Positions 3,001-58,200 of a stretch of DNA of 64,000 bases are shown piece by piece (the stretch's first letter is position 1; the number at the start of each line of letters is the position of its first letter). Source of the DNA: Ectocarpus siliculosus. Its lineage: Eukaryota > Sar > Phaeophyceae > Ectocarpales > Ectocarpaceae. Position numbers and translations under genes: made by a program. A model generated the notes under the pieces. The model had not been told where the DNA came from, made no database searches, and saw nothing but the letters and a program-made list of their open reading frames with translations. The stretch spans positions 5,747,775 through 5,811,774 of the forward strand of contig FN649741.1 in NCBI GenBank assembly GCA_000310025.1. Reading direction: 5' to 3'.

Positions 3001-6000
3001 CCCTCGACCCCCTCTCGGCGCTGAAGGACATGTCTTCGCCGGGGACTCTTCCCGAGCCTATGAGTCTCTCGTACCCGCGTCTGGCCTTGGCACCCTCAGG
3101 CATACTCCGCAGGAACGTCGTGACGAACATTGCGTGGTTAACCTCTCTGTGTAGTGGGTATTGGGGTATGGTATGAAAGGAGCGGCAGGGGGGGGGGTGT
3201 CCGGGGGGAGGTTCGGCACGAAACAAACAGATGAGGTGTAGGGACAGTGAAGATCATGCCATGGTGACGTTGACTGCGCGTACTGCATGCCTGGACCTAC
3301 CGTTTGGATACGCTAAAGAGGACAGCGATGGCGGAACCACTAGACGGAAAATATACAACGACAAACAACATTAATAATTCAGAGAAGGCGGTGAGACCTC
3401 AAGCTGAAAACTACGCCGGCATACGTTGTCGAGGATGGTATTATCCGCCTTGGGAGTTGGGAAGCGAGACACTCTCGTTGAAAAAAATGCCACTTCTACA
3501 GCAATGTTCCAGATTAAAACACGCAAGATACCACACCCGCAGAACACCACACATGATGATATTTACATCTTCAACGCCAACCTAAATTTCTGGGTTTCAT
3601 CCCCGGCTTGAGCGAATTTCACGTAACGCGGTGATGAACCTTTGGACCCATGTACCTTCAGGTGTCACAAACCCTTGGTATCACGTCCCCTTACTACCAT
3701 GCTCCATGCTGTACGTGCGTGATTCACATACCCCTGGTTGCCACACACCCTGTCTACGCTACCCCTTCACAGCTCCCAACGACATGTTCTTTTCTTGCCC
3801 GGGTCACCGAAAATTCCACACCCTCCACAAAAGAATACACCTGGTGATCATAGCAATGACATCATCTTATCACCGGGACATCGGGTATTTTAACGTGTGT
3901 AGAATACGGCACACCCGATCAGTACGCCAGAACAGAGAACACAGAAAGGCCAACAAATGCCATTCTGGTATTTACACAACAACGGTAGTAAGGCGAATGC
4001 TCATACGCATGTAGGTGTTACGATTTTATCCGTCTTTCTGCTAGAGGACCCACGTCATCGCCTACGGTACGCTTTGCTCTTGACTGTTGCAGTGACTATC
4101 GTTTCGTGCGTTTGTTCCATGCCGCTGTCTCATCACGAACCTCGTCAAATCCTCTCCTTCTAGGCCATCGTCATCCAGAACTCCGACCAGTAGACTCAGC
4201 ACGTCCCCAGCTTCCCGACAGGCCCGCATCCAGCTGAGGTGTCTAGCGTCTCGACAGTCGGAAAACATTTCTCGAGTTGACATGAGACAGCGCGCGACCT
4301 GCTTATGGGTGTACGATTGCATATTGTAGGCCCCCGTGAGATGTTGGCTCGTTCAAGGTCATAAGGATATTCGAGCACAAGTCGGGGTCGTACCTACAAC
4401 CCTCATCCTTCAGGGCTACACGCAACCAATACACACCGCATACGATATTTTAAGAAACCACTAGTTCTAACGTCTTGGCGTTAAGAAATATTGTCTTTGG
4501 TCGTGATTTTCTGTGGGAGACGTGGTATCTCATGTCGTCCGGGTGATTAGTACAGGTCGCCGGAGCCATCGAGGGGGAAAAAAGAAAAAATAACTAGGGT
4601 ATGCTGCAACAGGACCGTCGCTGTTGCGTGGGTTGGAGTCGATCGGCTCAGTTTCGTTCACTCCTACTGCGCCCAGCATGGTGTCTCAACGTCTCAACAC
4701 AAGAAGTTGCGGCTTGGCGTGCACTGACAAGACTAAGCTAACAATGACAGTACACGTAAAGCCAAAAACGCTGGAGGGTTACGATCCCTCGTTTCTCTGC
4801 GTGAAGCAGAGGGCTCTGTCTATTGAGCTACAACGGTAAGTTGTAAGATAAGCACAGGACAGATCTCGGGGTAGAAAGCCGGCCAGGTTAGGGGAGAAGA
4901 AACAGGGGAATGTCTACAGTAATGGTCAGAATGGGAGAAGGGGCGTGGGTGACACACAGCTCTCGTCATGGAGTAAATGAAGGACAGACAAGTTGCCAAG
5001 CGTGCCGGTAAACAACACGAAAATTCTCCCAGTGTGTTGTGGTGTGACAAGGCATCGGAGGGTTCACATGTCCTCGAAAGTCGTACATCTCCCGAGATGC
5101 TCATAACCCGGGGAACGCGCGGAAAACGTTACTCGGTTTCCAACATGGTACGGTACGACTAGGAGCGGTTGGTGTGCAGGAGGACAGCGATCCACATTAA
5201 GGCAAGCACGAAAGTGGCCGACACCTTCCCTCTTTGGTGTTGTCCTGCACCAATGTTTGTCTGCGTATCGCTGCTCGCCCTCGTATCTACCTATTGGAAC
5301 TCATCAAGTCTATCTTTGCGTTTCTCCTTTGTCTTTTCGCACCTCATTTCTGTCCGCCAATGTGCCGGTGGCACTCCACGGAGCTTCCCCCACCTGCATG
5401 CAGAGTAAAACAAGAAACAACAGCAGCCGTCAGTGATAGTGGAACCCAGTCCGCAAAAAACAAAACATACCCATGGAAATAGCTGGTAAGCTCTGGAGAC
5501 GGGGGTGTTGAAGGGAATGGCTATGTTCTGCAGGAGTGCAATACCTGAGACGCACCAGCACGTACACTTAGTTTTACCACGTATACATGGTTTTACCGAG
5601 TACTCAACTATCACTAGAGGAGTATAGATTGACATGACATTTCTTGCCACAAAAATTTACAGGCGCCAAACGGATGCAGCAAGAATACATCTACCACACA
5701 GTAGGCAACCGCACCTGTTCCGGCATCAGACCCTCGATAGCCCACCGCATCATGGATTTTATTGTCTCTCCCGAAGGGTCAGCCTTCGCCAACGCCACCA
5801 ATAGCGATGCAACTCCCGTGTTGTCACGCCCCCTCTTTCTCCTCCCACTCCCTTCCCGTCCCGCTTTGGTGTCATCCTCATTCACATCGCCGGTGCCAGT
5901 CTCGCCGTCGTTGTCAGTAGAGGAGGTCTCTGGTGTCCGGCAGCGCCAAGACCACCTTCAAAACGGAAACAGCGAACACAGCATTCAGCATCCAGTCAGT

Positions 6001-17494: not shown

Positions 17495-20400
17495 CTACTT
17501 TTTTGCGGCCGTTGCCTCCGTTCCCCCATTTGCCGCGGCCGCCTCTGCCGCCTTCTTTTCCGCCTTCTTCTTGGCAAGAAGTTGAGTCTTGACGAACTTG
17601 AAGCGCTCGACGCACTGTTTCTTGCTCTTGCCGGGAACCGCGGCGGAGATGGAAGCCCACCTCTCGTTCTTATCCATGCCCATCGGGAAGCGGGCCAGCG
17701 CGGTCTCGAGCTGCTGCTGCTGGGCTTGGCTCCACACGTCCTCCTGTTTCGGAGGGTATTTTGGGTATCCAACAGTTTGTTCGGTTTGTTTCTTGTTTCT
17801 TGTCCATGGTTTGAAGGACCCACTTTCACCAGTAGACACGACTTGATGGAACCGTTCCAGAATGCAAGCAATCGCAGCGCTACGAAGCAAATGCAGAATC
17901 TGTGCCACGCATTACAAGACGCAAACACAAAGGCGCTCACCCTAGGTTCTCGGCGAGAGGGTCGCTCCGGCGCAGACCTGGCGTTTGCCGAAGAGGAAGC
18001 AGCCGCGACCGCTGGAGCCACGACCTTCTGAGGCCCTGCAGGAGCAGCATGAAGCTGCTGGTACTTGGCGATGCAGTCCTCCTTGCTGAAGGGATCCTTG
18101 GCGCGCGTCGCCTGAGCGATGAACTGCGAGATGTGCTCCCAACCTATGCCGACAGACACGACCGTCGACATCAAGAACGTGTTTCCATATGTCGTAGTCT
18201 AGTCTTGATCGACGTTGGGTTTACGTAACGGCTATGCTTCTCAAGCAAATAACCTCTATTTATAGTTTGATCGACTTGTTACCCATGTTGATACTAAACT
18301 TGAGCAGGATGCGAGCTATGGATCACGAGTGCAACACACAAGAACCTTCAGTGACAATCCTTCCAGCCCCGACTTTGAGCGCGGTCCACCAAGAACAATA
18401 TTCTACACTCATCAAACAATCCTAACAGATGAACACGCAATGTATCACGCGCAATAAGCAATAAACAGCTGCGCCAAACACAACAAACTCACGGTTTTGA
18501 GACCCTGCGGGGAACTTGACGATGGCTTTGGCGAGGGACGACAGCTCATTTTCTTCCCATGCCCGCTTGCGTGACTCACGGTCAGACCCCATCTTGAGTT
18601 GCGCCGCAACAAGCGCCTGAACAAAATGGAATGCCGTAATAATGCAAGAGCAAAAAACGAGAGGTTAAGACCGACGTTTCATTCGTGATTTACGGCGCCT
18701 GCTACTAGTACCCATTTGCACGATACTGTCAGGCTGAAAGATCTTTAGTCAACCCTTGGCTCGCCATAGTCTACAGACTCTGAGAAATTACGCAACGCCT
18801 CAAAATAAAGACAACTGTTCATTCCTAGAGGCAGAGGAGCTGAAAGAAGAAGCGGCTGAGACAAAATAATTATCTTCGTATTATAGTAGGATACCACGTC
18901 AATCCTATCGGTTTGAATCTAGGAACGCTTCAAACGTGCACTGGTATGTATCGACTGCGCCAGCATTCTTATCTACTCGTGTTGTGGTTGGTGTTCGCCC
19001 AACACATAAAGGGGAATCTACTTGGTGTATATTTTCATCATATTGCCTCTCTGTCCGTCCTCTGCTTGGCCTCCGCTGCCTCTTCCTCTTCCTTCAACTC
19101 CGCCTTTCTCCGCTCCATCAGCACCTTCATCACATCCAACCCTTCGACCTTGATGTCCTGCAATGCAAATCAAACACCCACGCATACACTACAATTAGTG
19201 TACGCTACGAGGTGTGCGGCGAGGCAGCAACAGCTTGCGGGAGGGTGGTTTAATGGAATGGACAAGTGACAGAATTTGAGTGCCCTTTGCATCTCTCTCG
19301 CAAATCGACAAAAGTTCCCATCCCACTCCTGTCTCTTCCAATAGCAATGCCTAGCGATCACGTCCAAGTACTCGAGGACGCACGTGCGGGGCCACGCCGC
19401 TGATTCCACTTGTACCGCTGAAAATAAAACATAGAAGGAAGGAGCTCTACTGGCACGCGACAACGACCATCGCGAACTACTGCTTGAGAAAGAGGCAAGG
19501 GGTCACAAGTCGTCGCCGGATCCTACACAGGTGTAACGCCAGCATCACCGAAAGTGGGTGAAAAAAGCACGCCGAGTCAAACAAGGTCACAGTCGAGAAC
19601 GGCAGTCGACAACTTGCACAACGCTCTGACCCACAACCACAAGGCAGAACCATTGCGGCTACTATATCATGCGCACCAACGCGTCATGTTTTACTTTTTT
19701 TATTTCTGTTCACCAAATCTTCTTGCCCACTCCTCAATCACCTCCTCTGTCCCCAAGGCTGAGATGGCGGCGTTAAGCTGGTCCAGCAACAGGTTCTCCT
19801 TCAACCACTCCATGTCCTCTTCGCCCACAGGTGTAACCCCCGCCTCCGAACCGGAACCGCCGACAGTCAGCTGCGCTACCGCCAATGAGTATAGGTTTTT
19901 CATCACCTGTCGAGGGGAGAAATCCAAGCGGCATGGAGGGAGGGTGATCCGACATGTAGACACGTGCATGGCAGCTGATCATCATGTTGTATATAAAAGC
20001 CATATGCATATGCTGTTTGTGGTCTTGTTAGTACCCATGTGTCCTCCATCAGCTACTCACACTGTCCTCCATCGCACTTTGCCGCGCTGTGCCATTTACA
20101 TTCGGAAAAAGCAACTTCTCTCCACTCAAACGATGCAGCAGCAAACCGTTGGACTCAAAAATCCCACGCCAGCGGTACCATCCATGCATACATCCTGACC
20201 GAACCCCAAGAGCGTAGCAGATGTTCTTTAGACCTTCTCACATACCTTCTTTCGCCTGCGCATCTCCTTCTTGTGAGCTTCCCTGCCCGCCTTAGCCTGC
20301 CTGGAAATGGCCCTCAGACGTTCCTCCTCCTCCTTCTTTCTCCTCTTCTCGTCCTCCACGGCCTGAATCTTAGCCTGCTCTCGCTCTCGCTTCTCGCGCT

Positions 20401-42440: not shown

Positions 42441-45400
42441 ATGGCCGCGTCTGCTAATAGCAAGGATGAAACGCAGTTCTGGAAGCTCGTGTGGCCTCCG
42501 CTCAAGAACGGTGGTTGGCGCTACGAATTACAGACACCACCGGTAGCAGCGGATGCCGGCAGCGACCAGTCGGATGAAGCGAGCCCGCAAACCTGCCACA
42601 GCAGTCGCCGGACCAGCCCCAGAACTCGCAATAGGATGACCAGGAGTAGTAGCAGCAGCAGCAGTAGCAGTTCCACAGGTAGCAGCAGCAGTTCACCCCG
42701 CTGGAGAAACCCGTCAGCGGCAGCGGCGGCGGCATCAACAGGAACAACAGCAGGATCCTCCCAAATGCCTGGAAAAGTTACGGTTTTCTTTCCGCCCCCG
42801 GTCGGAGAGGCCAGTGAGGCGTTAGAGGAAGCTATGAGACGTGCGGCTCCTGCGGATGGCTCTCTCGACGAAGAACGGCCTGATCACCTCGTCGGGGTGA
42901 CCTCCGTGATAGAGCTCCTCCAGCAGGTGGCTGGCTACCCCGGTCCGACCACAAGCTTGGGCATCATCAACTTCGATGCCGTCGCCGCCGCCGCCCGCGG
43001 CGTGTTGGTTCGAACGCCGTCTCCTTCGAAATCGGGCTCCGGCCGCAGAGAGGCCACGGCACTGGGAGTGGCGGCGGGAGCGTGCGCTGCTGAGGTAGGT
43101 TGCATCCACGCTACAATACAGCAAGCCCGCGGCTTTTCTTGGTCTATGTACGAGATGTAGGTGAATCTACAACTCTACTCCATAGTATGGATACGTAAAA
43201 GGGCTACATTCATTCATAGAATTGGAGGATAACCTACGACCGGCACGTGGCGCGCTGAAAGCAGCAGTGTACAGTGGATGTGCCTGAGTGGTGGCGAGCG
43301 GTGTGTACAATGCATGTAACTCAAGTCTGTTTTGCCGGTGACTGGCTGATCTTACAGTAGTACATACATTTGTGATGCAAAGACTCGCGTACGCGAGTGC
43401 TGCTGAACGCACCCCCCACGCACGATTCGTTTGTTTTCCGCGGGGTATACTGCCGTACTCAATATCCGGCCAACCTCAGCACCATGCTCTCTCTAAACTC
43501 GTTTTCTCTGCGCTAGCAGTATTTTGTCGGCAGCTTTTTGCAGCAATACATGGCACGGGTTGGGCTACAGTAGGAGACGCAGTAGTCCAAGAGACTGCTG
43601 TGCCTAGAGACTGCCTTCCGAGAACGGCACGTCTAGTTTTACATCACTAACCCAAGTACAATAACAGCTTGCTCATGGTGCCGCCTGGGGCAAAAGGCTG
43701 CTGTACCATACAGCGTACAGTAGTCTTCGCAACATTCGTCACCCCTGCCGGATGAAATCCCCTGAGACGCCTGCATGGGTCTATTCTCGATATCTCGCTG
43801 CGTCCCCGCGGAACATTGGCCTAGAGTGAAATGCTGAATAATGCTTAGAATCGGTGTTTACTAAAACATTTCCGATGAGATACTTCTGTCCATTGTCTCA
43901 TGTGATCGACACAAAACAGCACGTGTCCGTCACACGCGGCAGTACTCCTGCTTGGCAATCACAAGTACTGCAAATATGTCACCCCAAACGATAGATCGTC
44001 CTAGTGCATTGCTCCTGGCTGGAGTGAAGAGAACGTCTCGCCTCCCACCCCCTGACCTCCCACGATGGAAACCTCCGTTTGGATTTTGTGTCTATTCGCT
44101 CTGCGTGACCCTGCTGTGTGACCGGTTACGCCTGCCTGCAGGGCAACACGCCAGTGATGGCATCTTCGCGAAGCAGGAGCAGCAGTATCAGTAGTTCCGA
44201 CGAGGCCGTTGTCAGGGAGGAGCTGCAACCATGGCCAGTGACGACCGGCGGGGGAGTGCAAAGCTCCGCCGCCGAAAATACCGACCTTCAGCAGAAAGCC
44301 CAGCCCTCGATTGATCCTGGGTCGGTTGGACCTGCTGCCGCAGGCCCCGCACCCTCGCAGCTGTTGTCGGCGTTGGCGTTGTCTTTTTCCTCCGCGATGA
44401 GTAGCAGAGGGGGCGCCACTGCTCCGGAAGGAAGCATGTCCGCCGCGGCGGCCGCCGCCGCTACCGCAGGTGTGTCAACCACCGCCGCAACAAGGCTGGG
44501 TCGTGTGATCAAGAAGCCCGTGAGGCTTGAGCACGAAAAACCCGGAAGACAGACCCTGGCCGGTAGGAACGGACGCGCTGACGCGCCGGCGAAGGTAGCA
44601 GCCCGGGTCGCTGCCGCCGCCGTCGCTGCCGCCGCTGGTGCCGTTGCCGCTACGAGTGCCACCAACACTGCCACCGGAGAATCAGCTGCAGGGTTGTCGT
44701 GTACCAGCGGCAAGGCTGACAGCCAAGCGCGTGATGTTAACATTACCGGGGGGGAAACGACGGCGACGGGGAAAGGGGCGAAGCGTTGCGTGGCGCGCCT
44801 CGGCACGGCGCCGGGCAGCGAAGGCGTCGTCGGTCCAGGAGACCAGAGCGTTCTGCCGTCGGCTGGAAATGGTAGCATCGCGATGAGTAATGCCTCGGGT
44901 ACCGCGAGCGATGCGTCGTCGTCTCCTGCAGCAAGCTCTGTCGTCAGGATGGCGCTGCCGGCGGACGTGCGCACGGCAGGAGCGCCACCGAGGGGAAGGG
45001 ACGCCGACGAGACCGGTGGCGACGGGGGCGGAAATTCCTCGAGGAGATCGCGAGATTCGGTCAGGGAACGCGATCGTATGGTATTGCCGGACCCTCCGCC
45101 GAAAAGACCTGTTGGAGAGCTCGGCCCGGTGCCCGAAGACGCGATCAAGGAGTACAAGCGCGCCTTTGATGATGTGAGAAAGCGGTTCACCAACATGTCA
45201 CCGTGCTACTTAGTAGATTACTCCTTGGAATGTGAACACAACAGCTACGGACACGAAATAGAAATAGGCGGCCTCTCGTCACTGCGCTAGGCATACCTCT
45301 GTCAAATATCTCAGGCGTCCGAGAGGCAAAGGGGTGTACCAGGAAGTCGGAAATCCATGTCATCATTTCAGTGGAGCGATGCTTCGAACTTGCCTACGCG

Positions 45401-48400
45401 TCACGTCGCGGTACCGCAGTCCTGTTTATACCCAATCAAGAACCAATCACACAAGTACACTGCTGTGGCAAATTGACACAATCGAGCATCATCACAAGAA
45501 CTTTTAAATCTAGATTCGAGAAAGATAGATCGTGCCAATTCTCAGCAGAGGAAGATTACCCCCAAAGCACCCACACTCAAACACACCAAGTACGTCCACA
45601 ATCCCACTGATTTGTGTCGCCGCATGGTGCGAGTACCAGTCCTCTACCCGCCGTCTCGTTCGTGGGTGACACGACCGGAGGCGGCCATCCCCGAGTCGAC
45701 CAAAACGTGTGATAAGAACGCGGGACCGTCATGCGGCGTTCTCTGTGCGGCCCACGACCGGACGTCCGGACCTGGGGATGACTACCAGCCCTTTCCGTGT
45801 CAGGCGCCCGCTCGCCTTGCTGTTGCTGGTACCCTATTCTCCGCCTAAAATCACACATCTACCACGCACTCGTGAATGAATGTGGCCTTTGTTTACTCGT
45901 TTGGTGGGTTTTGTGCCCGTAAGGTGCAGCTAGCTATCGTTCACGAGAAAGCACACACGTCATCGCCGGTCAACTCCCAATAACCATTAGAAGCCGTCTG
46001 GTCGTTCGGTTGCCTGCTGTACAGGTCGTTTGGCCCGGGCTTGCGCAGGAGTTCGGTTGGAAGAGAGTACGCGGTCCCCGTCCAAGTGACGTGTACTACC
46101 TCCCGCCAGGGGTCGTTCGGGGACAGAACGGCGCGAAGTGCCGCGTGGACTACTTCGACAGCAACAGACAGGTTGGGTTTGACCGGCACTGGCTGTTGTT
46201 TGCTAGTCGGTCGTGTGGTTTGAACAAAATCGGATACGAGGTGGTTGTGGGCTTGGGTGCTTCTGTGCTCTAACTCGTAGGGAGCAGTGTCCGCGTGGGA
46301 CTAAATTGTGCATGGCCCTATCAAGATTGTGCGTCGAACTGTTATTGACAGGCGAAGAGATTTTGATCAGAGCATCCTATGTTCATGCGTCTATCCCGTT
46401 GTGGTACGGCCGCATCGGGGGTGCAAGGATGTTCAGAAGCTGCTTCTTGTGTTTGTTTTAGTTGTCCCCTGTGTTCTTCGATTCGTGGTTTCTTGTATCA
46501 TAGGTGTTGATCCACATGGCGGAGCGCGAAGAAAAGTTCAGTGACCTTCTGGAGAGGGCTTGGGCGGAGGCAATCGCAAAGCCAAGGGTGCTCGGGAGAA
46601 AAGGCGGGGGTGGCGGAGGTTCGAAACGAAGGAGGCGCTGGACGGAGCTGCCAAGGGTGAGTCGCGTAGAGATAGTAAGGCTTGTCTCAGATACGTTTGT
46701 GTTATCTGCCGGGCAGTCGAGCTCTGGGCGTCTTCGGTTCTAGTCACGTACTCGCTTCATTGTTCCCGCGGGCGGTGACGACAGAAAAATGAAACCGAGG
46801 TAACCGACATGAACCCTGTCCTCGGTTGCTTCTGAAGGCGGAAGGCACCTCAACGTCGTTTCTATATCGGTATTCCTCTTCCTTTCTCCCGCCTCCTTCT
46901 CATGTGCATACCGCACCGCTTCTTTATCCTTTTGCTCCTGTCACGGTGTGCACTCGCTTGCCCTTCCTGGGCATGCTGTCCGCACCCAACAGCGGAAATC
47001 GACGATGATGAAGAAGGAGTATCCCAAGAAGGTTTCTTTGGTGGGAACAGCGCATCAGGTGCGGGGAAGACAGAAGGGAATGGAGTAGCGCGAGATTGCA
47101 TGATTCAAGGCTGGGAGGAGATGGCGGTCGTCTTGGAGATTTGGTTTTTTCACCTACGAACATAGCTGTGTAGTCTATGGTTCATGCCCAATATCTCGAG
47201 TCCAGGCTGTCGTTATTCCGCAAATTGAAGGTTGTCATTCTGAGGCGTTCCCCCCCAGCATCCAGAGCAGCAACTCGCATTTCAGGCCACGCTAAACCTG
47301 AAACCAGGGGAGTACGCAACAACTCTGCAGGTCTCGACAAGACAGAAAGTGTCCCAAAGTTCAGAGGGAGTTTGTACAGACGAGTCCACAACTTCCTCCT
47401 CGAAACAGGAACGCTTCCTTGCAACAGGTCACACTCGAACTTGGCAGCACGTTTCAACTGTGTCTTGTGTGCTCGACCACAGGTGGACCCTCTGAACTTG
47501 CCCGTTCCCGTGTCGAGCGAGGACTACGTGCCTCCAGAGGACGTGCTGTTCGAGCAGGTGTGGGACCCGAGCGTCGTGGTTCCCTCTCCGAAAGGCGTGG
47601 GCGCCCCTCGGGAGCTTGCCGAGCTCGTGAAAGAGTTTGCCGGGGTGGTGAGCCAAGACAAGGTGCGGGAAACGGTGGCGTGTTTCAATAGAGGGAGAGG
47701 GGGCGTGTGCTGTGGTACACGATGCATCAGGTGGTCTACAGGGTTGTGATTCAGCCGGTGGGGGTGGAGTAAGTACCTCTCTTCCGACACGGGGCGACGA
47801 GCGTAGTCCTGTCTTGAAGCGTCGCTGGTGGCGCCTTGCCGGCCTTGGTGGTAGTATGAAGAAGGAAGTTTTGTTTCACACACCAACATAACTAAAGCCT
47901 TGCTCCGCAGAGTGGGTGTCCGTCAAGTGCTCTCGTCCCAAAACAGCCATCTCGTGCAGCAGGGTGCCGCTGTCCTCCTCTCCCGTTCTGCGGGCAGTTC
48001 AACCCTCTACGCTGCAACCCGCTCAAGCCTGGTTCAATCTTTCTTAGTGTTCCTCGACGTGACAACCATGGCAACCTCCTTTGTTCTCGTCTCAATCATT
48101 CATGTACCATTCATGTACCAGTGTCTGGAGATCGTTCATCGCTTCGAAGGGGACTACGGTGAGGCTCGCAAGTTGCTTAGAAACCTCTCGCGGTCGTGGA
48201 AGTCCCGTTACCTGGTCGCCTCGAATTCGACGAGGGAGACGGCGTCAGCAAAGGCCATCGTGGCCAGAGAAACCGCCGCGCGCCTTGCAGCTGCACCGCC
48301 GCCGTCTTCATCGTGGTCCTCGTCGTCAACCAAAGGTGGCGATCCCGACGTCGCTCGTGGTTGTGGTGGTGGGTGTCCGATTGTGGCGGGTTCGACGACG

Positions 48401-51400
48401 GTGACTGCTAACACAACAAGAAGCGCGGTGGCTTGGGGAGGGGGTGCGGCGGCGGTGGCTGCCCGAGGTGCCGGTGGGGGCGTTGTCGGCGGCAGCAGCG
48501 GCGGCGCCAGCCGCGGCGGTCGCGGTCACGTTGGCCTTGCAGGCGCCCCGGGGATACAGGACGCGTTCTGGTGTCGCCCGCTGAAATCTCTCGCAGGAGG
48601 CGAGGCCGCGTTGAAGCGGCAGGTGCAAGGAGGCGTGTCCAGCATCCCGCCGGGGGCCAGGAGCAAGGACAAGCTGTCGCTGGACTTGAACTTAGCGCGG
48701 CCGTGGCTCCCCCACGAGGCGGCCATGTACACGAGGGCAATGCTCGAGGAGGGGTCAAAGAACTTCTACGCCGCGCAGGTAGGACGAAGACTGTAGTTAG
48801 TACTGTAGCACTCTACCGGGAACGTGAGGCGGGAACCCTTTTCGTGCATTCCCTGGACTAACAAGAAGGCCTCTTTGCAAACAACAGTCTTGCATTTCCG
48901 GCGAAGCGTCTTTGCACGTGCACGACAACTAGCGCAACACACATAACACGAATCTGGTGCACTAGCCAACGAACGCTTGGCCAAGAACGGCGAGCATCAG
49001 CCTGTTCCGCACTTGACCGTAAAATGTTGGACCCTCCGCAGGAACTCCACTCGCTGTCCTCCTACCTCTTGTATCCACCACCCTTTGCGCTGTCTGTCGT
49101 GTTGAAGCGGATATAATTGTCCATTTCCAAGACCGTATCTACTGACCTTACGTTGGCGTCATCTATCGAAGTCATCACTGGCACCTTACCCACCTACGCT
49201 CCGAAACCTTGCTCTGCTGTCCCCCTGGTGCGAACCCTGTTCGATGTACATTTTCTTTCTTACGCAATGTCGAGCAGAAAGCCCTACCGGGTAGGCAGGT
49301 GTGCGAGCTGGTGGACCGATACTACGGGGGTTGGAAGCAAACAGACGGGTATAGGGCCCTCAAGGAATCCATCCGGTATGTATGTTTCGTGTGTGTTTGA
49401 GAAATCTACTATTTTTGTCTTGAAAAAAAACGGAAATGTATGCCATCTATCGAGAAGTCTCATTAGGCCCATTATAGCATAATCATGCTTGTGAACGATC
49501 GCACCGGTTATTCCTTGGTTTTTGTCTCTGCACCCCGGTGCAGAACCCCGCTGGGTGCGAAAACCCCGATATTGGTGGAAATACAAGTTAATCAATGCGT
49601 CCTAGTTTTTCAAAGGCACCCCCGGTGCGATAGCTCCGATGAGCGATTGGTAGGTGAGATGCGTATGAAATACAGTGGCCTTGATGTACCGGCGCTATGG
49701 TGTCGTATACATATGCAGGCACCGCGGTGCGACGATCGCGATTGTGCGATATTGAAAAACACCACAGCGGCTTGGGTTGCCTGCAGATAGGTGGCCAGTG
49801 ATGGGGTCGAATACGAGTTTGGTCATGGCTTGTGGCAAGGGCGAAAAACGATGTGGTTCCCTTCTGGGCGTGTGCGGTGTAGGTTGTCTTTCCAGGTTCT
49901 TGCTGACAGGCGTCCTTCCCTTTGTCGTTTTTGGCCTCCTCACCGAATACTGCTTTAGTACCACATAAGTTCTTTCTTCAGTAGTTGGGTGGTGGATTGC
50001 GGGACGTTCTGCACCTCCTGTCGAGTTTTGTTTGCCCGTCAACCCCGGGAGGTATTGACGTTCCGCAATCATGCGTGTCAAGGTACTTCGGCTTAGCCCA
50101 TCAGAATTGGCACTAAGATCATGGGGTATACACGCACACCCGCCCCTTGTACGCGTGGGGTTCGTATCTTGGAAACGCCTCGCGTTTTTGTGCACCTCCG
50201 TCCCAAGACATATGAACTTTCGTGACACGTAGTTTGTCGAGTCTTGTCTCCCCAGCGTAGTGCTTGCTGCATTTCGTGTATCTACTCGTGGTTTCATCCC
50301 AGAATAGAACAGCCCAACAGAGATCATTCTCTGCGTTTGCCCGCCCGCTCTGCTCTAGTCTCCCTAACTCTGCCCCACCGTGTGTCATGTTTGCCTCTAT
50401 GTTTGCCGTACCGACCCGTCAACACTTGCCAACCGCGGAATACGCAGCCTGTCAAAGAAACAATCGGTGAGAGCGGCAACAGCAGTTGCCACATCTTGCA
50501 TTAATTGGGGAGTAACGAAACAGGATGTTGAACGTATTGCAGACGAATTGCATGGCGAGTGAAAACACGCACCGGTAGTCTACAGGCGAAGTACATGGTC
50601 TAGCGCAGGCAGTGGTACAGAGGAGGAAACGTGGGCTGTGGCCGGAAACCAGGGAAAAATGGAATTGTTGTTTTTTCTTGGCTCGCCGTGCACCGCTCTT
50701 CGCTCAAAACTAGCAATGCCTTGCGAGAGAGCGGGTGTGCTTCGGGGGCACGCGCCGCCTTGGCCGGTCGCACGTTTTGCAACTTTCGGTGTCCCTCTTT
50801 CTCTGTATTTGATGCTGTCAGGCCTGTGGAGGGTGCCACGCAGGAGGAGACCTCATCTGCTGCGACGGTTGTGAGGCCGTGTATCACCCGGAGTGCGTGG
50901 GGCTATCTGTCGTCCCGGAGGGAGACTGGTTCTGCCCGGCGTGCGTCATTCGCAGGAAAAAGGAGGCCGAAAGGCCGTTAGGACAGGCATCGTCCTCCTC
51001 CTCCTCTTGGGCCGCAGGGGGGAGTTCTGCTCGTCTTGCCGGCGCTGCGTCGGGCCGGGGGCGGGTGGACTCCGCGGTGGCGGCCACCAAGCGTGAGAAT
51101 ACCGCCGGTAGGAGCAAGAGGTATATCTCGATGACCGCCACTGTGACCGCCGCCTCCGTGGCGTACGTTGCGTCATCCAAGAAGGCCCGCACGCTTGCGA
51201 AGGACAAGGGGGCTGAAGGCGGCGGTGGAAGCAGCGGTGGTGGCCGGGGCGGGGTAGGGGGCAGAGATATCAGCGCGGGGACTGAAACCAGCCGTGCAAT
51301 TGTCGGTGGGGTCGGGCCGCCGCCGCCACCGCCCATGCGAATGGAGAGGGTCCCGATCCAGTTGGGAATCGCGCGAGGTGCTGTTGGCGGCGCGGCTAGA

Positions 51401-52600
51401 GTGGCTGAACTAGTCTCCTCGGGCGCGGGCGGTGCTGCTGCGACAGTGTCGGCGTCGGTGTGTCCACTAGGGACCGCGACCTCGGCCGCCTGTGGGAGAA
51501 GTGGCGCGGCTTTCGGGAAGCGCCCAATCGTTGGCGAGACTCCTATCCATACACAACACCCCGGCAAACGCCCTGCCAGATTGGTCAAGACCGCTGCTGC
51601 TGCATCTGCAAGGAGCGCCGAGGAGTCTCCTCCTGTAAAGGTGGCCCCGCTGACGATTGCGCCACGGCCGCCCTCTTCTGCAGGCGGAACGACCGCTGGC
51701 GCTGCCGGTGCCCAGCTAGGGCGAACAGCAGCGATCAAAGCGACCAATGGTGCTCCCGCGGGGAAAACGTCGGCCGCAGCAGGCGATTGGGGCTGCCTCG
51801 GCTGCAAGCACCGCAACCGAGCTGAGGACACACGGTGTCGTCGGTGCGAGGGGCTCAGGTTGGTCGGAGCGGAGATTAACTTGAAAGGGGTTCCGCGCCA
51901 GGCTGAGGCTCCTCCGGCTGCGGCTCCCCTCGTGGGCAAGGCTCCCGCGGCTGATTCTGTCCCCATCGCCGCCGCTGAGCCCACCGGTGGTGTGAAGCCG
52001 CCGCCTCCCGCGCCGAGCGCCGAGTCCGCTGCTTCGAGTAACGCCTCTGCCGTCGCCGACACCCAGGCAAATGCTGAACCGCGCGATGCCGCCGTGGCTC
52101 TAGCTGCTTCCGACTGTTCCACCCGCGCTTCTCTAGCCTACACAGCCGCACCCGCTCCTCTTGCTTCGAGTGACCCGTGGGCGCCGGCGGCGGCGCCGGC
52201 GGTGCGACCGGCCCAATGGGGCTGCCGCGTGTGCTCCACGTTAAATAAGCACACCGAGGCCGTTTGCGTGAGCTGTGGCACGCGCAAGGAAGACAAGGTC
52301 AAGCCTGTAGACGAAGGGAAGGCGGCCGAGTGGTGGAACGGTCGAAAGTGCTCCCGCAACGACAACCAACAACACGACGGCACCACACGCAGGGTCTGCT
52401 CGGCTGTTGGGGGCGATGACGAGCTGCAGGTAGAGGTGGGATTGGAGGTGGGGGAAGAAGTGGAGGGAGAGGAAGAGGACGAGGAGGAGGAGGAGGAGGA
52501 GATATCTGTGGGATTGGACGAAGAAATCTCGGTCGGGGAGGATCGGCAGGGTCTAGCGCCCCCTCTCTCCGGGATGACCTCAACGTTTGTGCAGCTCTAA
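42441..52600 (+). CDS. ELM2-SANT-PHD-RanBP2 zinc-finger chromatin protein with two GW/PPV modules
   Basis: ELM2-SANT proteins (MTA, MIER, RERE, CoREST types) recruit histone deacetylases; PHD fingers read histone tails. Exons 42441-43094, 44142-45173, 46025-46171, 46504-46656, 46993-47058, 47483-47662, 48122-48778, 49278-49375, 50448-50466 and 50822-52600 all join in phase: 1594 residues. In order: a module with FWKLVWPPLKNGGWRYE and VTVFFPPPV (about 11-160); Ser/Ala-rich linker; a second module with VVWPGLAQEFGWKRV and DVYYLPPGVV, ending DYFDSNRQVLIHM (563-615); ELM2 (VSLVGTAHQ, EQVWDPSVV, EIVHRFEGDYGEARKLL; about 675-770); SANT (WLPHEAAMYTRAMLEEGSKNFY, VCELVDRYYGGWK; about 930-995); PHD (CGGC...ICCDGC...YHPEC...WFCPAC; 1003-1047); two RanBP2 zinc fingers (W-x-C-x2-C-x3-N-x6-C-x2-C, about 1325 and 1468); acidic tail. 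The start ATG has a good context. Exon 9 of this list is a 19-base microexon, chosen because it restores phase. Confidence 0.88.
49528..49735. repeat. spaced palindromes GCACCSSGGTGC
   Basis: TCTGCACCCCGGTGCAGA (about 49527), GCACCCCCGGTGC (about 49616) and GCACCGCGGTGC (about 49719) are three near-identical perfect palindromes about 90-105 bases apart, each followed by short related sequence. They lie in the intron between the SANT and PHD exons. Confidence 0.6.
50448..50466 (+). other. candidate 19-base microexon
   Basis: Bordered by ACGCAG on the left and GTGAGA on the right. It completes one codon and adds LSKKQS. Without it the exon ending at 49375 (phase 2) cannot join the PHD exon starting at 50822 (phase 0). 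A longer exon using another acceptor cannot be excluded. Confidence 0.5.
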
Positions 52601-55213: not shown

Positions 55214-58200
55214 TTAGAGGGTAAGGTCCTTGGGAGTTTCCCAGGTGAACTCCGGGTCGCTGCGCCCGAAGTGGCCGTAGGCAGCCGTCTTGCGGAAGAT
55301 GGGCTTTCGCAACTGCAGGTCGCGCAGCAGGCAGCCGGGCCGCAGGTCGAAGTTGTTGTTGATGATCTCCACGAGCTCCTCGTCGGTCTTGCCGGAGCGG
55401 GTCTTGGCGGTGCCGTACGAGTCCACGTGGATGGAAAGAGGGTAGGGGACGCCGATCGCGTAGGACAGCTGCACCAACACGCGGTGGCAGAGGCCGGCGT
55501 GTACGAGGGACTTGGCCACCCACCGAGCAGCGTAGGCCGCCGACCGGTCCACCTGTCGACAGCAAAGCAAAACAACCAGTTGTTTTTGGTCATCAGACAT
55601 TGACTCGCCTTTGGGGGGTGGGTGGGAGAACTCCCCAAGTCGCAGAGATGCAGCAACATGTAGCATAGCGAAACGTAGACGCATCATCAATCTACGACGG
55701 GTACGCTGTTTTCGGCACAAGCAGCACGACGCCCACCACCCTAGCCAACGCAAATGCTTCCGAGCGCCAGGATAGGCGAGATAGATGAGAGCTTCACTGA
55801 CAGGCACCGTCATTTCATCCTCGAACCAAACGGTCTGGGTTTTGTATCGTCTTGCCTACGCTTCAACAAGGCAAGACTACCTGTGACAAGGGACCGCCAT
55901 AAGTCTCGTGTCTCGAAAGGGACTCTAAGCGATAAGTGATCAGACGACGACACAATGATAAAGGTAAAACAAAACGAGAATCCACTGAACTCCCGCCGCC
56001 GCATCCTCTACTCCACCCCCACACCCCGGGCGAGACATGCCGCCGACTGTTTTTCCTTCCTTTCCTCACCTTGGTCGGGTCCTTCCCGGAGAACGCCCCA
56101 CCGCCGTGCGCGCCCCACCCGCCGTAGGTGTCGATGATGATCTTGCGGCCGGTGAGCCCGGCGTCCCCGTGCGGTCCACCGATGACGAAGCGGCCGGAGG
56201 GGTTGAGGTGGTAGATGGTGTCGTCGTCGAGGTACTTGGCCGGCACGACATGCTTGATCACGTGCTCCTGGAGGTCCGCGCGGATCTTCTCGTTGGAGAC
56301 ATCGTCGTCGTGCTGCGTGGAGATGACCACGGTGTGCACTCGCTGGGGCACCATGCGGCCGTTCTCCTCCTTGTACGCCACGGTCACCTGTGCAATAGCG
56401 GTGGGTTTGAAATTTTTCGCAAACGGGGGAGCAGATCCTCGTCAGAGAGATGGGGATGGTTTGTTCGAGAGGAGCACCAGAGGGGAGCACGTTCGTGCAC
56501 TTGGGCTGTTGTGTGCGGCAGTTGATGCTTCCAGTCTCGGTGACAGCATCAAGACATATGCATACCACATGAAATACTGTCGTTTTCGGATGGCCGAACA
56601 GACCGCACACATGCTGGCAGCCGGTATACTATGCACATATTGAGGGGTCGAGTACTACGAGCGACAAGTTTCCTCGACACAGCACTAGCGCTTCTCTTTC
56701 TAGTGTCCGAATTCTACCCTCTCATTGTCGCACCGCACACTACCGCCCTAAATGACATATTAAGACATGTGTGCACTCGTGCAACAAATTAGGACAGGGT
56801 TTTAAGCTCCTGGCCAGCTGGGGTTATGCCTCTAGCAACGGGGGGGGGGGCATGGTGTTTTACCCCAATGACACTGCAGGTCTTTCCCAAATAGTAGCCA
56901 GTGTTGCCATATTGTCCTCTTGGGATTCACTACTGCTGTTGAGCGAATCTAACTAAAAACTGCTGTAGGCGCTCTTGACCTCCTGGGCAAGGGCAAGGGG
57001 ACAAAGGGGGTTCGTGCAACTAATTCAAATTTCGTGAGAACCCTTCCGTCAACGTCTGAACATACGTATTTCCATTTTCAGTCCCACACACAATGCAGTC
57101 TTGCTCTATGCTGTCCCTTCTGAATCAATCGATGAATGCTCACATGTCTTTTGCGGATGTGGGTGCACGCACATATCTTGTGTGTGGCTATGCAACATAC
57201 GTGGACGCGTATCTATGCGTACCTCTTGGATCATTATACTGTACATGGATAATGGGGCGGGTGTGGTCCAAATCCCCAAATGTTTCGTGCTCTTGTTGTG
57301 GTCGGTTTGCAAATGGCCGCATTTCTAAGAGCGCCACGCACGTTTCTGACAACAACCCACTAAGCTTCAACAACCCACTAAGCTTCCATCCAAGCTCGTG
57401 TTCCGAGGGAGTGCTTGCGGTCGTCGTGGGCAGGTTGAAGTTGGGCATACGTTGCATACGCGCGACTCGTTTGGCGCTAAAATGGTGGCGGGGTATCCAC
57501 TGTTGATTCACAACGAAACGATTTCGTTTGTTCCGTATTTGCCCACCGACTACGGGTCAGGCCGTAGCCATGGACTTTCCGCGTGTCGCGGCACTAGGCG
57601 GAATGGGCACGTGGTACCATGGGCGTGGCCACACATGTCCATTCATCGCCTTGTGCGAGGTGACGCGATCTTTTCGGTTCGGTACACACTACTTACACAC
57701 CCGCCCCGATAGGTTCAAGCTCGTTCGGCCGCCTTTCGCTACGATCACTACTAACGTGTGCAATATATATAATACACGCGACCCTCCAGATCTAGTTGGC
57801 ACGTTTCGCGACACAGATCTTGTGCATCCTGACGTGCAGCAATTACGACAAACGGTCGGTGGGTACAACGCCCGCACGCGCCCAAACAAGTCCCTCTGTT
57901 CGACCATGGGCGTGCGCACATCGTTGGTTGACGTGTATTTTCCGTGGTGCCATAAATCTCCCTCCCCCACCACTTGCCTGGGTCTTGCCATCGGGTCGGC
58001 ACCACTCGCAGATCCCCTTCTTGCGGACCTCCGTAAGCCGTGCGCCGATCTGCGTGGAGAGCTCGTGCGACAGGGGCATGAGGCTATCCGTCTCGTCCGT
58101 GGCGTAGCCGAACATGATGCCCTGGTCCCCGGCCCCGATGTCCTCGATGCGCGTCGCGTCCACGGACTGCGCGATGTCGGGCGACTGCTCCTCGACCGCC

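Follow-up and report, generated by a model that had tools for sequence, protein, structure and literature searches.

ELM2-SANT scaffolds hold the histone deacetylases HDAC1/2. Among CoREST (RCOR), RERE, MTA and MIER, none is known to carry DUF7650, a PHD finger or RanBP2-type zinc fingers. In PHF12 and PHF21A, which we take to be subunits of the Sin3-histone deacetylase (HDAC) and CoREST complexes, the PHD finger sits on a separate subunit. The plant ELM2-SANT proteins with DUF7952 and DUF7650 are presumably the SANT1-4 family of the HDA6 complex, and we likewise assume that the plant SANT proteins described in that complex are these ELM2/DUF7650 proteins. Here we describe a gene of the brown alga Ectocarpus siliculosus, lying in a window of 64,000 nucleotides (the whole stretch of DNA analysed: positions 5,747,775 to 5,811,774 of contig FN649741.1; G000:C16:5747775-5811774), in a genome of 189 Mb and 492 contigs. 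Its predicted product joins an ELM2-SANT core to two N-terminal DUF7650-like modules, a PHD finger and two RanBP2-type fingers, and is probably an ELM2-SANT corepressor in a new domain arrangement.

Four reports bear on the systems closest to this gene. In MIER1/2, HDAC recruitment depends on a Trp in ELM2, whereas inositol phosphate made little or no difference (PMC5207708). MTA1 contributes two Lys and two Tyr residues to a pocket for inositol phosphate (PMC4244562). At unmethylated genes in plants, SANT proteins are associated with HDA6 and MBD2 (PMC10808059). The fungal protein Snt2/SntB, partner of the deacetylase Rpd3/RpdA, resembles the algal product, by its description, in having SANT and PHD in one HDAC-associated protein, although a figure legend lists a BAH domain for its complex; in KERS, the association of SntB inhibits RpdA (PMC9508808).

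Results

The gene was rebuilt from open reading frames (ORFs) on the plus strand. Ten exons (42441-43094, 44142-45173, 46025-46171, 46504-46656, 46993-47058, 47483-47662, 48122-48778, 49278-49375, 50448-50466 and 50822-52600), separated by GT-AG introns, translate to 1594 residues with a single terminal stop. An earlier note on this DNA had proposed one phase-consistent protein of the same length, and its picture of the gene and of the domain order as a whole is confirmed here. The junctions are in phase 0 throughout, except for phase 2 into a microexon: a phase-2 donor after 49375 together with the 19-nt exon yields exactly 1594 residues, whereas a nine-exon alternative lacking it and using another donor yields 1589. 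As the frame of the PHD exon opens at 50813 and holds no ATG before the finger, this exon must be spliced to upstream sequence. The model predicts a single mRNA across the ten exons.

The PHD finger placed after ELM2-SANT in the earlier note was recovered by Pfam with 36.8 bits (cut-off 24) and displays the Cys4-His-Cys3 pattern. Its closest PDB matches are PHF12 (E 1.4e-12), ZMYND8, NSD2, PHF21A (E 1.6e-7), AIRE and CHD4; unlike in PHF12 and PHF21A, the algal finger is fused to the ELM2-SANT scaffold. We take PHF21A and AIRE to be readers of histone H3 unmodified at lysine 4, and ING4 and TAF3 to be readers of the methylated form. No aromatic cage was seen in the algal finger, and a search of viral contigs gave no confirmed relatives of it.

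The SANT domain was compared with solved structures, with a profile and with single sequences. In a phmmer search of the PDB (E up to 10), five of the 14 matches were RERE, MTA3, MTA1, RCOR1 and RCOR3, with RERE and MTA3 at ranks 1 and 2. A profile built from five animal ELM2-SANT segments placed the window model first among 1897 sequences, with 15.7 bits compared to 4.1 for the best of 2000 shuffles. Pairwise alignment to comparison sequences gave Z scores of 13.1 for CoREST, 10.8 for RERE, 10.1 for MTA1, 7.7 for the plant protein, 7.5 for TRERF1 and 5.0 for MIER1; the controls Myb and ZRF1 gave 3.2 and -0.5. The score was reached by none of 2000 shuffles for CoREST, RERE, MTA1, TRERF1 and the plant protein and by 3 for MIER1, as against 24 for Myb and 1377 for ZRF1. 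By these comparisons the SANT domain is of the CoREST/RERE/MTA class. Pfam reported no SANT match in the spliced segments of the window gene or in its paralog (see below). Elsewhere in the window, a minus-strand ORF at 17498-17911 contains a SANT/Myb-like stretch (KQEDVWSQAQQQQLETAL...VPGKSKKQCVERF) that resembles ZRF1/DNAJC2 by eye.

The candidate ELM2 segment reads VGTAHQVDPLNLP and then QVWDP, where the signature of the family is VGxxxQAxIP, then W-x-P and a C-terminal helix; it aligns to one relative, MIER1, with a Z score of 5.0. The sole Trp of the MIER1 ELM2 aligns with a Trp in both algal proteins, and the letters KNF, YY and WK, which presumably correspond to the two-Lys/two-Tyr pocket, also occur in both. 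The gene is like CoREST, RERE, MTA and MIER in its SANT class, in the position of ELM2 and in the conserved Trp. On two further contigs, C34 (L003, L004) and C22 (L006, L007, L008), genes that have an ELM2 start motif (PF01448) lie in clusters, possibly tandem arrays; in L004, L006 and L008 the motif is preceded by a stretch that looks BAH-like by eye.

A diverged paralog with the same ELM2-SANT-PHD order lies on the minus strand of contig C489 (C489:1043191-1047532; L021, L022). It is the last of six matches in the ELM2-SANT genome search (E 0.044). The PHD query matches there too, 2 kb away, as the weakest of 13 (E 0.0819), and it is the coincidence of the two queries at one place that makes the paralog convincing. 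With slashes for exon limits, it reads EEEYSGRLGGAYQ/ATIPERETMP...QIWAAV.../CLELLYR...HPWCKAEKMLFSSAMVSNGQKDFSAI.../...ECSTHYYSGWKIDPAYLELK, followed by a PHD finger of 26.1 bits (Pfam cut-off 24); its ELM2 motif, LGGAYQ/ATIPE, is clear by eye, and its ELM2-to-SANT stretch is short. The two genes have matching introns behind VGxxxQ, ahead of CLE, within SANT and one codon ahead of the first Cys of the PHD finger, and both SANT exons end in phase 2, an agreement that is partly guided since the C489 exon limits were drawn by eye alongside the window gene; no acceptor was assigned to the first C489 exon. In single-subject blastp with filters off, the E-value between the two proteins is 3.7e-8 for SANT and 9.8e-5 for the C-terminal half of ELM2. 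The ELM2-SANT profile gives 23.5 bits for the window segment with its long stretch cut out and 21.5 bits for C489, the best of 2000 C489 shuffles reaching 7.8. Our main reasons for placing a probable ELM2, and a link between SANT and PHD, in the window gene are the C489 motif, clear by eye, and the shared order. The ELM2-SANT core of the earlier note thus holds for SANT, by profile and PDB matches, and more weakly for ELM2, which owes its place in the window gene mainly to the paralog.

A separation of SANT from PHD into two transcripts, which the earlier note named as a way in which the model could fail, is made unlikely by this paralog, by its similar introns and by the missing ATG before the PHD finger. 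In neither gene is the exon between SANT and PHD certain: tests for one conserved in both yielded no clear pair, and each gene offers a short candidate. The 41 RanBP2-finger matches listed for the genome include none on C489, and module profiles gave nothing above 8 bits in the 25.5 kb around the paralog. A Copia-like retroelement was recognised by eye upstream of the C489 gene.

Profile comparisons relate the N-terminal modules, earlier described as two copies of an unnamed unit, to the Pfam domain DUF7650 (PF24662). Module 1 matches it with E 0.011 / 0.02 (16.2 / 15.3 bits), under the gathering score of 27, and with E 0.0011 (19.4 bits), still under the cut-off, once its low-complexity insert of ~80 residues is cut out. 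The genome search with DUF7650 (E up to 10) returned two places, both below cut-off: a protein on contig C30 (L019; E 0.0146) and window exon 1 (E 0.591). When the six algal modules were scanned singly, only module b of the C30 protein (24.6 bits, E 2.6e-5, under the cut-off of 27) and window module 1 were reported; the other four, window module 2 included, were not. The same module family recurs in two large proteins with two copies each, the C30 protein and one on contig C2 (L018); the latter has BRCT domains over the Pfam cut-off, the former only a sub-threshold BRCT match. Window module 2 and a C30 module find each other reciprocally in genome-wide searches (E 0.0133 and 0.129), and with a profile built from the four modules outside the window, the window model (E 3.3e-7) and the module 2 exon ORF (E 1.4e-6) are the top two of 2245 sequences. 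With this profile module 1 is unsupported (E 1.9), and adding a plant sequence brings it to a weak 0.077.

Five algal modules (window module 2 in, module 1 out) aligned by hhalign to two plant DUF7650 sequences with a score of 41.5 (E 5.3e-8). Without the window module the score was 36.0, compared to 17.6 for the best of 200 column shuffles, a control that strengthens the DUF7650 link. On its own and without its insert, module 1 scored 30.5, the best of 200 shuffles reaching 19.1; the score of module 2 on its own, 19.95, barely passes that of the best of 200 shuffles (19.65). Going by these scores, module 1 is connected with the plant domain and module 2 with the algal modules, the C30 copy forming the bridge between them. 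By profile alignment, then, the window modules are distant relatives of DUF7650; module 2 stands as described before, and module 1 is a degenerate copy, split by its insert and lacking the DYF. The height of the scores of the plant sequences shows that they belong to the DUF7650 family: the plant ELM2-SANT fragment gave 2.4e-64 for DUF7952, 7e-48 for DUF7650 and 0.0012, just below cut-off, for ELM2. When the genome was searched directly with the plant protein, the window was not returned (the one match, E 5.45, lies elsewhere), so the module-plant link rests on profiles. Exon 3 has no confirmed relatives in the additional genome contig set, and DUF7650 is not named in the literature searched. 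An MBD-like fold was considered for the module and is not supported (hhalign score 16.1, with one of 60 column shuffles higher).

The plant fragment shares with the algal gene an ELM2-SANT and a DUF7650-type module in one protein, as well as the YYGxxxxxDGYR spacing in SANT helix 3. It differs in that its single DUF7650 is C-terminal to SANT, whereas the algal modules are N-terminal, and in that neither a PHD nor a RanBP2 finger was seen in it; DUF7952, which contains SANT in the plant family, had no match in the algal spliced segments. The idea of a purely lineage-specific combination is thus not supported for the module and the ELM2-SANT core, while the order and the added fingers do depart from plants.

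Both C-terminal fingers show the RanBP2-type pattern W-x-C-x2-C...N...C-x2-C (finger 1, CKHRNRAEDTRC; finger 2, CSTLNKHTEAVC). The ORF holding them scores 32.3 bits in Pfam (cut-off 27); in the genome scan finger 1 is over this value (28.8 bits) and finger 2 under it (22.9), so that the two perfect fingers of the earlier note hold as a pair and for the first one singly. Their best solved matches are RanBP2 and Nup153, a ranking that may be raised by PDB chains with many fingers, which sum their scores; ZRANB2 and ubiquitin-binding NZF chains are weaker. By eye, the fingers lack the RNA-contact residues of ZRANB2 (N76, W79, R81, R82 and N86) and the TF dipeptide of Npl4.

Features of the gene are collected in Table 1. 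Downstream of it, exons of an S-adenosylmethionine synthetase were recognised by Pfam on the minus strand at 55217-56441, and a selenocysteine tRNA is predicted on the minus strand at 4766-4837.

Table 1. Features of the predicted E. siliculosus corepressor gene (window positions)
Feature	Position	Strand	Basis or remark
Whole gene model, ten exons	42441..52600	+	Nine GT-AG introns; 1594 residues
Module 1, DUF7650-like, degenerate, split by Ser/Ala-rich insert (exon 1)	42465..42935	+	DUF7650 E 0.011, 0.02
Exon 2, low-complexity Ser/Ala/Gly linker	44142..45173	+	No Pfam match over cut-off
Module 2, DUF7650-like (exon 3), VVWPGLAQEFGWKR...DVYYLPPGV...DYFDSNRQ	46025..46171	+	Four-module profile E 3.3e-7
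Exon 4, closing part of module 2 (VLIHMAE), then a basic linker	46504..46656	+	Gene model
ELM2 start (VSLVGTAHQ), exon 5	46993..47058	+	Intron after Q as in C489 (LGGAYQ)
ELM2 middle with conserved Trp (FEQVWDPS), exon 6	47483..47662	+	Alignment
ELM2 C-terminal part (CLEIVHRFEGDYGEARKLLRNLSR)	48122..48193	+	blastp to C489 paralog E 9.8e-5; same exon start CLE
ELM2-to-SANT stretch, ~165 residues, largely Gly/Ala/Ser-rich	48194..48694	+	Much shorter in C489 paralog
SANT helices 1-2	48695..48778	+	PDB matches, profile, pairwise Z
SANT helix 3 (VCELVDRYYGGWKQTDGYRALK)	49278..49364	+	PDB matches, profile, pairwise Z, paralog
19-nt microexon linking SANT to PHD (tentative)	50448..50466	+	Restores frame; yields 1594 residues
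PHD finger	50822..50944	+	Pfam 36.8 bits; best PDB match PHF12, E 1.4e-12
RanBP2-type zinc finger 1	51782..51865	+	Pfam, PDB matches
RanBP2-type zinc finger 2	52211..52294	+	Pfam, PDB matches
Acidic Glu/Asp-rich tail	52414..52545	+	Sequence

Discussion

We propose, with a probability of about 0.62, that this one gene encodes a nuclear corepressor scaffold in which an ELM2-SANT core works with a class I HDAC and which has a built-in reader of histone H3. The ELM2-SANT core would most likely wrap a class I HDAC and help to activate it, HDAC binding being a prediction from the SANT class, the ELM2 Trp and the pocket letters; the histone-deacetylase platform put forward earlier is retained as the likeliest role. 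The genome holds 14 matches to HDAC-family exons. The PHD finger would most likely attach the complex to tails of histone H3, probably those with an unmethylated lysine 4. Chromatin binding or complex assembly may be the task of the two N-terminal modules, and the RanBP2 fingers may add a protein-protein contact of the Nup153/RanBP2 kind.

Several observations weigh against this proposal. The PDB matches of the SANT domain are weak (best E 0.023), and the profile score comes mostly from SANT, the C489 ELM2 motif contributing 2.2 bits. Pfam reports ELM2 in neither the window gene nor the paralog, and the six places listed by the PF01448 genome search do not include the window gene. Taken by itself, the window ELM2 is barely above chance, its score being equalled or exceeded by 65 of 5000 shuffles. 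The weaker matches of the PHD finger include ING4 and TAF3, and AlphaFold on exon 3 alone gave no usable module fold (mean predicted local distance difference test score, pLDDT, 56.8). A diverged ELM2-SANT that has lost HDAC binding and acts mainly as a PHD-based chromatin adaptor would account for the weak ELM2, for QV in place of QA, for the ~165 residues between ELM2 and SANT and for the one residue inserted in SANT helix 3 between YY and WK, a difference from CoREST, RERE, MTA and MIER that may alter the pocket geometry. Nevertheless, both algal genes retain the Trp of ELM2 together with the four pocket letters, and we regard such a loss as rather unlikely.

It is also unlikely that two genes have been read as one, one upstream with the modules, the other downstream with ELM2-SANT-PHD and beginning close to the Met residues of exon 5. 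In-frame ATGs do occur in exons 2, 4 and 5, and the C489 paralog, in which no modules were detected, may itself be a gene of the second kind; yet every junction of the single-gene model is in frame with GT-AG sites, the module family and ELM2-SANT stand together in the plant protein, and the Copia-like element may have displaced the 5' part of the C489 gene. A lineage-specific HDAC platform that binds RNA or ubiquitin through its RanBP2 fingers, as the earlier note suggested, and is steered by them, we consider very unlikely: two such fingers are present and ZRANB2 and NZF chains are among their weaker PDB matches, but the RNA contacts and the TF pair are missing, RanBP2 and Nup153 (with the reservation made above) are closer, and the module link with plants speaks against a lineage-specific platform. 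A pseudogene or a chance mosaic of open frames, to which the long low-complexity stretches might point, is scarcely credible in view of 1594 open codons over ten exons, intact zinc ligands and a paralog with similar introns.

The corepressor scaffold that we favour has a new domain order, and its combination of domains is probably not specific to the lineage. What was described as an unnamed module now connects, in a way open to test, the chromatin scaffolds of this brown alga with a plant domain that has no assigned function. Tentatively, and against somewhat unfavourable odds, the partnership of a DUF7650-type module with ELM2-SANT could predate the split between plants and stramenopiles; the module would then be an old domain of general chromatin binding that BRCT proteins use as well, and a widespread corepressor, here equipped with its own H3 reader, would have given rise to the plant HDA6-SANT scaffold. 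If plants and this alga do share ELM2-SANT plus DUF7650, two distant lineages would be available for studying what the domain does, and the origin of the HDA6-SANT scaffold would not lie in plants. If the proposal is true, the fusion of an H3 reader to the corepressor would make it a compact natural version of animal complexes that need separate subunits.

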